64,000 nt of DNA from Microcaldota archaeon (GTDB lineage Archaea; Micrarchaeota; Micrarchaeia; Micrarchaeales; Micrarchaeaceae). The stretch's first letter is position 1; each line of letters starts with the position of its first letter. The translations under genes were made by a program, and so were the position numbers. Location of the stretch: assembly GCA_021827995.1 (NCBI GenBank), contig JAKATK010000001.1:1-64000 (forward strand), in the 5' to 3' direction. The notes under the pieces were generated by a model that did not search any database, was not told the origin of the DNA, and saw nothing but the letters and a program-made list of their open reading frames with translations. Below are positions 25,174-58,383 of this stretch, in pieces.

Positions 25174-25680
25174 CTACGCCGCCCTTGAGATGTACACGCA
25201 GGACACGGCCGCGTTGCTTGGGCATGAATCCTGCGCGCTCACGTTTATGAGGTACGAGCCTGTCGAAGCTATCCCCTCAAGGTAACCGCTCACGTTCACC
25301 GGCGTGTATGCGGTTACGTAATCAAGGCCGGCGTCGGTGCTCACCACGAACGTTATGACGTGGCCGACGGTGTTGTTCGCAGTGCCGACAGTGACGTTCC
25401 TCACGTTGGGCGGCACCTGTATGAGCACCAGGAACCTGGCCGGCGGTCCCTGTGAGCCGACCTGCGTGGCTATCGTGGCCAGCTTGGTCGCCGCGCTCTG
25501 GGCCTCTGTCACAGACAGGGTGGAGGTCGAGGACGCTATCTGCAGGAACGCGAGGAAGACCACCGGCAGTAGTATTACAAGACCGAACGATAGCGTTATC
25601 AGGAGCTCCATGCTCGACTGCCCACGAGCCCTGGCGCTACTCGTCGATACCGGTGGGCGTGAGCTTCCTAACACTGACAA
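25174..25680 (-). CDS. Prepilin-like protein with class III signal peptide
   Basis: A 168-residue secreted protein whose N-terminus carries an archaeal class III signal: a basic stretch RARGQSSMELLI followed by a 22-residue hydrophobic helix. Processing would fall just before the QSSM segment, as in archaeal type IV pilins and related adhesins. The rest is rich in Ser/Thr/Val, with sequons NVT, NTT and NVS and one cysteine pair (C near 153 and C near 161). Start is TTG 25680 or GTG 25674, lying inside the end of the CBS gene (44-bp overlap). No pilus assembly ATPase is nearby, so the export route is unknown. Confidence 0.7.
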   Translation of the reverse strand: MSVLGSSRPPVSTSSARARGQSSMELLITLSFGLVILLPVVFLAFLQIASSTSTLSVTEAQSAATKLATIATQVGSQGPPARFLVLIQVPPNVRNVTVGTANNTVGHVITFVVSTDAGLDYVTAYTPVNVSGYLEGIASTGSYLINVSAQDSCPSNAAVSCVYISRAA

Positions 25681-26776
25681 ACCTCTCTTTCCTTTTTAAT
25701 ATGGCCTTCCGGACAAGGCCTAGAAGCTTCTCGAACGTCTGGTCCAGCAGGTAACCGGAGGCGTGCTCCGTGATCATGCCCTTGCTAGCGAAGCCCACCC
25801 TGGCGTGCAGCTCGTAACTCCTGGTCTTTATCCTCTTGACCGTTATCGCCATGTAGCCGATCTCTGCGCCGCTCAGCCGCCCTACCTTCTTGACGAATTC
25901 CTTGGCGCGCTGCATCATCTCCCCGCCGTACTCCATCGTCTCATTGTCCAGGCCGGACACGAACACGTTGGCCATCTCGCGCCTGCCCTTCACGACGAGG
26001 CTCTCTATTATATCGGTCACTGTCAGGACGCCGACGGGCCTCTTGCCGCTCATCGCTACCAGCGACGATATGCCGCTCCTGACCATGAGCTTTGTGGCTT
26101 CAGCCAGGCTCTCGCCCTCGTCTATGGTCTTCGCGCTGCGCTCCATGACGCTGCTCACCGGCACTTGCGCCGGCGAGTGCACCGCGGCCTTCATCTCTGG
26201 CAGCCTCTCCTTCGGTATGGTGTACCTGTGCAGTATGTCGTACTTCGTGAGCAGGCCAGCGAACGAGCCGCCCTGCAGCACTATGAGCCTGTTCACCTTG
26301 TTCTCGCGCATCAGCGCGTTCGCGCTGGCCAGCGGGGTAGCCGCGTCTATCGCCAGCACAGGCGTGCTCATCACCTCGCCGACCCTCGTGCCATCGAGGG
26401 CTTTGAGCGACAGTGCCGCGCTAAGCAGCGATTTCCTGTCGAGCACCCCTATTATCTTCTTGCCATTCACGTAAGGGAGCGCCCTGGTCCTCGCCGAGTA
26501 AAAGCCATTGACCGCATCCTCGAACGACGATGCCGGAGTGAGCACCGGCGCCCTGAGCGCGAAGTCGCCGGCGTACATGTCCTTGTCGAGCCTCAGGACG
26601 TGTGACGACCTGTAAACGGCCCTGGAATCTACCACGCCGAAGTACTCGCCGTTCTTGGTTATCACTACCGCCGGATATCTGCCGTCGAGAAGCGGCAGCA
26701 CCTTCGTTATTGGTGTCTTGTAATCGAGGAATTCCGTCTTTGAAAGCAGTCCGGCAGGCACGCCAAAAGTCTCCAT
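25637..26776 (-). CDS. Four-CBS protein with S30AE/HPF-like C-terminus
   Basis: A 379-residue soluble protein with four CBS motifs (about residues 12-60, 68-125, 130-185, 200-260), which typically bind adenine nucleotides in pairs. The last 110 residues are not CBS. KRIKTRSYELHARVGFASKG followed by GYLLDQTFEKLLGLVRKAI resembles the beta-beta-alpha end of S30AE ribosome-hibernation domains. A nucleotide-sensing ribosome-associated factor is therefore possible, but this is inference. ATG 26776 is chosen (METFGVPAG); ATG 26788 is also possible. Its 3' end overlaps the prepilin start. Confidence 0.75.
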   Translation of the reverse strand: METFGVPAGLLSKTEFLDYKTPITKVLPLLDGRYPAVVITKNGEYFGVVDSRAVYRSSHVLRLDKDMYAGDFALRAPVLTPASSFEDAVNGFYSARTRALPYVNGKKIIGVLDRKSLLSAALSLKALDGTRVGEVMSTPVLAIDAATPLASANALMRENKVNRLIVLQGGSFAGLLTKYDILHRYTIPKERLPEMKAAVHSPAQVPVSSVMERSAKTIDEGESLAEATKLMVRSGISSLVAMSGKRPVGVLTVTDIIESLVVKGRREMANVFVSGLDNETMEYGGEMMQRAKEFVKKVGRLSGAEIGYMAITVKRIKTRSYELHARVGFASKGMITEHASGYLLDQTFEKLLGLVRKAILKRKERFVSVRKLTPTGIDE

Positions 26777-26860
26777 GCTATTAACCATTACTAACACCGC
26801 GAGCGCAGGCACGCCAAATGGCGCAGCATCCTGTTCTCGTTGGTAGAATGAACGATAAAG

Positions 26861-26868
26861 TATAAATA
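26861..26868 (+). promoter_or_regulatory. TATA box of tRNA-Cys
   Basis: TATAAATA preceded by purine-rich ACGATAAAG (a BRE-like element) lies 28 bp before the tRNA-Cys 5' end, a standard archaeal promoter spacing. Confidence 0.65.
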
Positions 26869-26896
26869 GTTGCCATTCATGCATATAGCGGTCAGG

Positions 26897-26982
26897 GCCA
26901 GGATGGCAGATTGGCTATGCGGCCGCCTGCAGAGCGGCGCAGGAGGGTTCGATTTAGCGTTACGAAAATCCCTCTCCTGGCT
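26897..26982 (+). tRNA. tRNA-Cys (GCA) with a 15-nt T-loop intron
   Basis: A complete cloverleaf: acceptor GCCAGGA pairs with TCCTGGC, discriminator T at 26982 (the Cys identity base), anticodon arm GCCGC-CTGCAGA-GCGGC with GCA. The T-stem GAGGG/CCCTC is intact, but its loop is 22 nt instead of 7. The four bases TTCG (26948-26951) pair with CGAA (26963-26966). This leaves 3-nt bulges ATT and AAT, which together form a bulge-helix-bulge site. Cutting after the second base of each bulge removes 26954-26968 and leaves the normal loop TTCGATT. Confidence 0.9.
26954..26968 (+). other. tRNA intron (predicted, T-loop 59/60)
   Basis: Fifteen bases between the two predicted splicing-endonuclease cuts in tRNA-Cys. 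The bulge-helix-bulge has outer helix GAGGG/CCCTC, a central 4-bp helix and a minimal inner helix TA/TA around GCGT. Non-canonical archaeal introns in the T-loop are known; removal is expected to need a broad-specificity splicing endonuclease. Confidence 0.8.
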
Positions 26983-58313: not shown

Positions 58314-58383
58314 CATCGTCTGGTCCGGTCAAGGACACGGCCCTCTCAAGGCCGGAACTCGGGTTCAAATCCCGGAGGGAGCA
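58314..58383 (+). repeat. Near-complete tRNA-Glu (CTC) copy lacking its 5' acceptor strand
   Basis: Seventy bases align without gaps to tRNA-Glu from position 6 onward. The anticodon arm CGGCC-CTCTCAA-GGCCG is intact with CTC and normal T33; the T-arm is TCGGG-TTCAAAT-CCCGG. The 3' acceptor AGGGAGC has no matching 5' strand: the first five bases are TTTTT. So it is an attachment-site copy at the outer end of the island or an inactivated tRNA, rather than a working gene as it stands. Confidence 0.75.

Follow-up and report, generated by a model that had tools for sequence, protein, structure and literature searches.

A putative T-loop intron in the tRNA-Cys gene of a Micrarchaeaceae archaeon and its recurrence in the family

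The tRNA-Cys(GCA) gene at 26897-26982 (+) of the window, the whole 64,000-nt stretch of DNA analyzed here, has a T-loop of 22 nt (TTCGATTTAGCGTTACGAAAAT) by direct reading of the sequence. The question is how this gene could give a tRNA with the standard 7-nt T-loop. The initial annotation proposed that 15 nt between positions 59 and 60 are an intron, and this proposal agrees with the sequence, the geometry of a bulge-helix-bulge (BHB) motif, and 32 of the 75 orthologous loci described below. The acceptor stem GCCAGGA/TCCTGGC has 7 of 7 bp, and U73 and the D-arm are present. The anticodon arm is GCCGC-CTGCAGA-GCGGC with the anticodon GCA, and the T-stem is GAGGG/CCCTC. T54-T59 correspond to 26948-26953, the intron to 26954-26968, and position 60 to 26969. 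The elements of the gene are as follows.

26861..26868 (+): TATA-box-like sequence TATAAATA, ~30 bp upstream of tRNA-Cys, by inspection
26897..26982 (+): tRNA-Cys(GCA) with the putative T-loop intron, from the sequence, fold, structural scan, genome BLAST, and orthologues
26897..26953 (+): 5' exon, positions 1-59, from the BHB cutting rule; the same loop types are seen in intronless orthologues
26954..26968 (+): putative intron of 15 nt, TTAGCGTTACGAAAA, inserted at 59/60, from orthologue comparison and BHB geometry
26969..26982 (+): 3' exon, position 60 to U73, from orthologue comparison

By inspection, many other tRNA genes of this genome also have AT-rich elements upstream at a comparable distance. 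The gene at 26897-26982 was reported neither by ARAGORN nor by Rfam at the gathering score, and because gene finders can miss such tRNAs, micrarchaeal genomes may seem short of essential tRNAs. The assembly is 1.2566 Mb in 22 contigs, 88% complete with a GC content of 0.56, and the window lies on contig C20. BLAST with the spliced sequence found tRNA-Cys at one site of the assembled genome, and the second, intron-free tRNA-Cys that the initial annotation had named as counter-evidence is absent from this assembled 88%. ARAGORN with introns allowed did not report any further tRNA-Cys from the same assembly either. As the genome is 88% complete, a further copy could sit outside the assembly.

The T-loop was initially described as containing a 4-bp helix of TTCG with CGAA between two 3-nt bulges. 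The motif is composed of the following elements.

26948..26951 (+): 5' strand of the central helix, T54 T55 C56 G57, pairing with 26963-26966; TTCG in 32 of 32 intron-bearing orthologues
26952..26954 (+): 5' bulge ATT, with the predicted cut after AT; a 3-nt 5' bulge closes the inner helix in 27 of 27 distinct loops
26955..26962 (+): intron-side mini-helix TA-GCGT-TA, 2 bp and a tetraloop; weak here, 1-8 bp in relatives
26963..26966 (+): 3' strand of the central helix, CGAA, from orthologue comparison
26967..26969 (+): 3' bulge AAT, with the predicted cut after AA; a 3-nt 3' bulge gives 105 of 108 central pairs

In the MFE fold of this tRNA-Cys, the 4-bp helix and the 3-nt 3' bulge are formed above the T-stem. 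In this sequence by itself, just two A-U pairs (TA-GCGU-TA), the whole of the inner helix, close off the 5' bulge. The MFE fold accordingly has an 11-nt loop, and judged only by folding energy the motif is of the relaxed bulge-helix-loop type. The relatives contribute 27 distinct loops. Among them, a 3' bulge of 3 nt allows 105 of the 108 central pairs to form, versus 48-62 for a bulge of 1, 2, 4, or 5 nt. Likewise, the closing pair of the inner helix is formed in 27 of 27 at a 5' bulge of 3 nt, versus 0-17 at other sizes. The closing pair is UA in 11 loops, CG in 15, and UG in one, and the exchange between U-A and C-G represents covariation. The 4-bp helix and the two 3-nt bulges of an archaeal BHB intron were thus recovered by comparison, with a weak inner helix in this gene, and the alignment of relatives supports the full 3-4-3 geometry for the predicted motif.

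The family survey gave a match in 76 of 85 genomes, and 75 tRNA-Cys loci were read. In 32 of them, representing 15 genera, an insert of 13-31 nt enlarges the T-loop exactly at 59/60, and the other 43 have a 7-nt loop. TTCG, T60, and the 3-nt 3' bulge are found in all 32. Removal of the insert from the orthologues gives TTCGACT, TTCGATT, or TTCGAAT, and TTCGACT is also the loop of intronless orthologues. In silico removal of the 15 nt here leaves TTCGATT, as the initial annotation expected from cleavage between the second and third nucleotides of the bulges, and its length and pattern match those of intronless orthologues. Both the BHB rule and the alignment with intronless orthologues place the insertion point at 59/60, a position of non-canonical T-loop introns. 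As judged from these alignments, an insertion point shared by 32 of 75 orthologues is far beyond what would be expected by chance. G57 is present in 32 of 32 intron-bearing versus 16 of 43 intronless tRNA-Cys genes, and T54-T55, normally universal in tRNA, are altered in 0 of 32 versus 13 of 43 (both raw counts, kinship included). These two counts would fit positions 54-57 being held by pairing with the intron. The T-loops TGCGACT, CTCGACT, or TCCAACT were observed in intronless tRNA-Cys genes from the genera g1, g2, g9, g14, g15, g16, and g22 (for example, L198, L206, and L193).

The following gene lies upstream of tRNA-Cys.

25637..26884 (-): divergent CBS-domain-like protein, a syntenic marker of the tRNA-Cys locus, whose homologue adjoins tRNA-Cys in most relatives

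The true start of this gene is probably near 26788. In most relatives its homologue is next to tRNA-Cys whether or not the intron is present, and because this neighbor is common to both states, the presence and absence of the intron are alleles of one locus. The congeneric sister species G051, G052, and G054 have the locus without the intron. A minimum of 10 changes in intron state is required on a quick tree built from EndA alone; because the strongly supported branches force only three, repeated gain and repeated loss are indistinguishable on this tree.

The initial annotation anticipated a splicing endonuclease of broad specificity, and an epsilon2 EndA with the ASL Tyr-Lys and the catalytic Tyr, His, and Lys was found. 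It is the only PF01974 protein found in the genome, 369 aa long with two PF01974 hits in one frame, and its closest relatives are records from Micrarchaeota. The closest solved structure is ARMAN-2 EndA (4fz2/9w2k), and residues 2-369 align to 4fz2 with the e-value 7.8e-166. The full-length similarity, and the catalytic and structural units contained in a single gene, characterize the epsilon2 type. Y219, H233, and K264 align with the catalytic Y236, H251, and K282 of ARMAN-2 EndA, and Y143-K144 with its ASL Y160-K161. The ASL Tyr-Lys residues of ARMAN-2 EndA have been linked to broad substrate use (PMC12397907), and the YK motif was found in the EndA of most family members by a simple motif search, which missed a few. 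Epsilon2 endonucleases of broad specificity are known from Micrarchaeum (PMC6379350, PMC12397907), and relaxed motifs are cleaved by epsilon2 EndA (PMC4033280, PMC6379350). RtcB is also encoded in the genome. Two CysRS-family proteins were found at C5:5804-6709 and C12:67941-68858 of the source genome (G000), a full-length protein of 491 aa and a shorter paralogue of 378 aa.

In the precursor tRNA-Cys, T54-T55-C56-G57 would pair with the CGAA located toward the 3' end of the 15-nt intron, and this pairing would generate a bulge-helix-bulge stacked above the T-stem. The homodimeric epsilon2 endonuclease, encoded elsewhere in the genome, would cleave both bulges between their second and third bases, and joining of the exons by RtcB would restore the standard 7-nt T-loop TTCGATT with release of the 15 nt. 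It is very probable that the insert is a 59/60 BHB intron excised by epsilon2 EndA, with the exons joined by RtcB. Cutting, ligation, and the function of the mature tRNA-Cys are predicted here from the gene, the insertion point, the geometry with its covariation, the single tRNA-Cys copy, and the enzymes with their key residues.

Alternatively, the 15 nt might be retained and the tRNA-Cys might work with an enlarged T-loop. In eukaryotes, short inserts in the T-arm of tRNA genes are for the most part read as pseudogene features (PMC4090602), which is a point in favor of a reading other than splicing. In this family, however, only the BHB elements of the insert are fixed while its length (13-31 nt) and sequence otherwise vary freely, a pattern that would be typical of an intron recognized by structure and that places the splice sites at 59/60. 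As the loop is 7 nt long in orthologues that lack the intron at this locus, and a matching broad-specificity EndA is encoded in the genome, retention is very improbable. The gene might also be a degenerate pseudogene whose working copy lies in the 12% missing from the assembly; the assembly is divided into 22 contigs at 88% completeness, and it does contain partial copies of tRNA genes. Against this, every stem of the tRNA-Cys is intact, a TATA-like element is at the usual place upstream, and the synteny of the locus is conserved. In G070 (952 kb) and G075, both single-contig genomes, there is one tRNA-Cys match each, which is intron-bearing, and no full intron-free tRNA-Cys was seen beside the intron-bearing one in the 32 relatives, two of them on single contigs. 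A pseudogene is just as hard to credit as retention, and an excised intron is the preferred reading.

The structural scan revealed six tRNA genes with an insert-enlarged T-loop in the source genome, with isotypes assigned manually from the anticodon loops.

26897-26982 (+): tRNA-Cys, 15-nt T-loop insert
C8:12980-13081: tRNA-Arg-CCT, 27-nt T-loop insert
C10:54986-55085 (-): tRNA-Lys-TTT, 25-nt T-loop insert
C10:31808-31904 (-): tRNA-Leu-CAA, 12-nt T-loop insert
C11:54934-55036 (-): tRNA-Arg-TCG, 28-nt T-loop insert
C20:179402-179513: tRNA-Ser-GGA, 15-nt T-loop insert and an anticodon-loop intron

The 59/60 rule fits most of the six, with poorer pairing in Leu-CAA. The predicted mature anticodon loop of tRNA-Ser(GGA) (G000:C20:179402-179513) has C33, not the usual U33, and C33 pairs with the intron. 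Further anticodon-loop introns were found in the source genome by ARAGORN with introns allowed, and tRNA-Ile-GAT and tRNA-Ser-GCT appear to have D-arm introns. A probable tRNA-Trp with a 62-nt intron, labeled Arg(CCT) by ARAGORN, is located at G000:C20:176870-177004 (-); this intron may contain a box C/D RNA, like those of other archaea.

Several defective tRNA copies were also observed. At 58314-58382 (+) of the window there is a defective second tRNA-Glu(CTC), whose body is near-identical to that of the intact gene at G000:C20:79339-79413 and whose 5' acceptor strand is unpaired. A pseudo-tRNA or a remnant of an integrated element was considered for this copy, as was a split tRNA. Partial copies with Ala, Val, and Pro bodies and incomplete acceptor stems are located at G000:C13:37248-37298, C22:6445-6504, and C18:41085-41142.

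A loose T-loop pattern search in the genus gave mostly chance matches, and usable ones were chosen by tRNA structure. In G051, tRNA-Arg-TCT and tRNA-Arg-TCG (L339 and L340) have near-identical 16-nt T-loop introns, ATACAATGTATGAAAA and ATACGAGGTATGAAAA, and tRNA-Ser-GGA has one of 17 nt; that of tRNA-Arg-CCT in G052 is 38 nt. tRNA-His has a T-loop intron in the genera g10, g17, and g25. In the second family of the order, a T-loop intron is found in tRNA-Ala, and G088 has one in tRNA-Cys. The T-loop of this order is favored by introns, and the probable reason is that TTCRAN, which is nearly universal there, already provides the splicing motif with its 5' half.

A T-loop intron of tRNA-Ala was found in 12 of 12 genomes with an intron-bearing tRNA-Cys where both genes were readable. 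In G075, G076, and G082 from the Micrarchaeum group, the Ala and Cys introns are equal in length (13, 16, and 14 nt) and similar in sequence, and the Ala T-loop has the Cys-like G57. A permutation over the 12 genomes gave p = 0.02 for the resemblance between the Cys and Ala introns of the same genome, a signal carried by these three related genomes, and the similarity in these three suggests possible intron copying between tRNA-Cys and tRNA-Ala genes. It is conceivable, if somewhat doubtful, that the T-loop of this order is a standing acceptor for a mobile or gene-converted mini-intron, and that Cys and Ala introns undergo concerted evolution within single genomes through inter-tRNA copying. 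If so, a short insert ending with YGAA-NN could enter any tRNA, TTCRAN supplying half of the splicing motif, and the unit copied between unrelated tRNA genes would be the intron together with position 57 and perhaps even all of the T-arm.

Non-canonical introns at 59/60, and elsewhere in the T-arm, are known from tRNAs of Crenarchaeota, Nanoarchaeota, and Caldiarchaeum (PMC4090602, PMC3293823). The insertion point and the BHB-type junctions are the same, but the intron described here belongs to another phylum, its predicted removal is by an epsilon2, not an (alpha-beta)2, endonuclease, and it recurs in one isoacceptor across a whole family. Multiply disrupted tRNAs are described from ARMAN-1 and ARMAN-2, as Fujishima 2011 is cited in PMC4033280. 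These belong to the same phylum, with an epsilon2 EndA (PMC12397907), and have disruptions at varied positions including relaxed motifs; the species here is a different one. Similar introns in different tRNAs of one genome are likewise seen in the tRNA intron transposition of Thermoproteales (Fujishima 2010, as described in PMC4090602 and PMC4033280), while the present cases are few, in Micrarchaeota, and at the T-loop site only. No description of the family-wide tRNA-Cys recurrence and the Cys-Ala likeness was found in the limited open-licence literature. The tRNA-Cys 59/60 intron is a familiar kind of feature, since the position, the epsilon2 enzyme, and the non-canonical ARMAN introns are all published, and across the family a single syntenic locus is seen with and without it while the enzyme type stays constant, a favorable setting for research on the gain, loss, and movement of tRNA introns.
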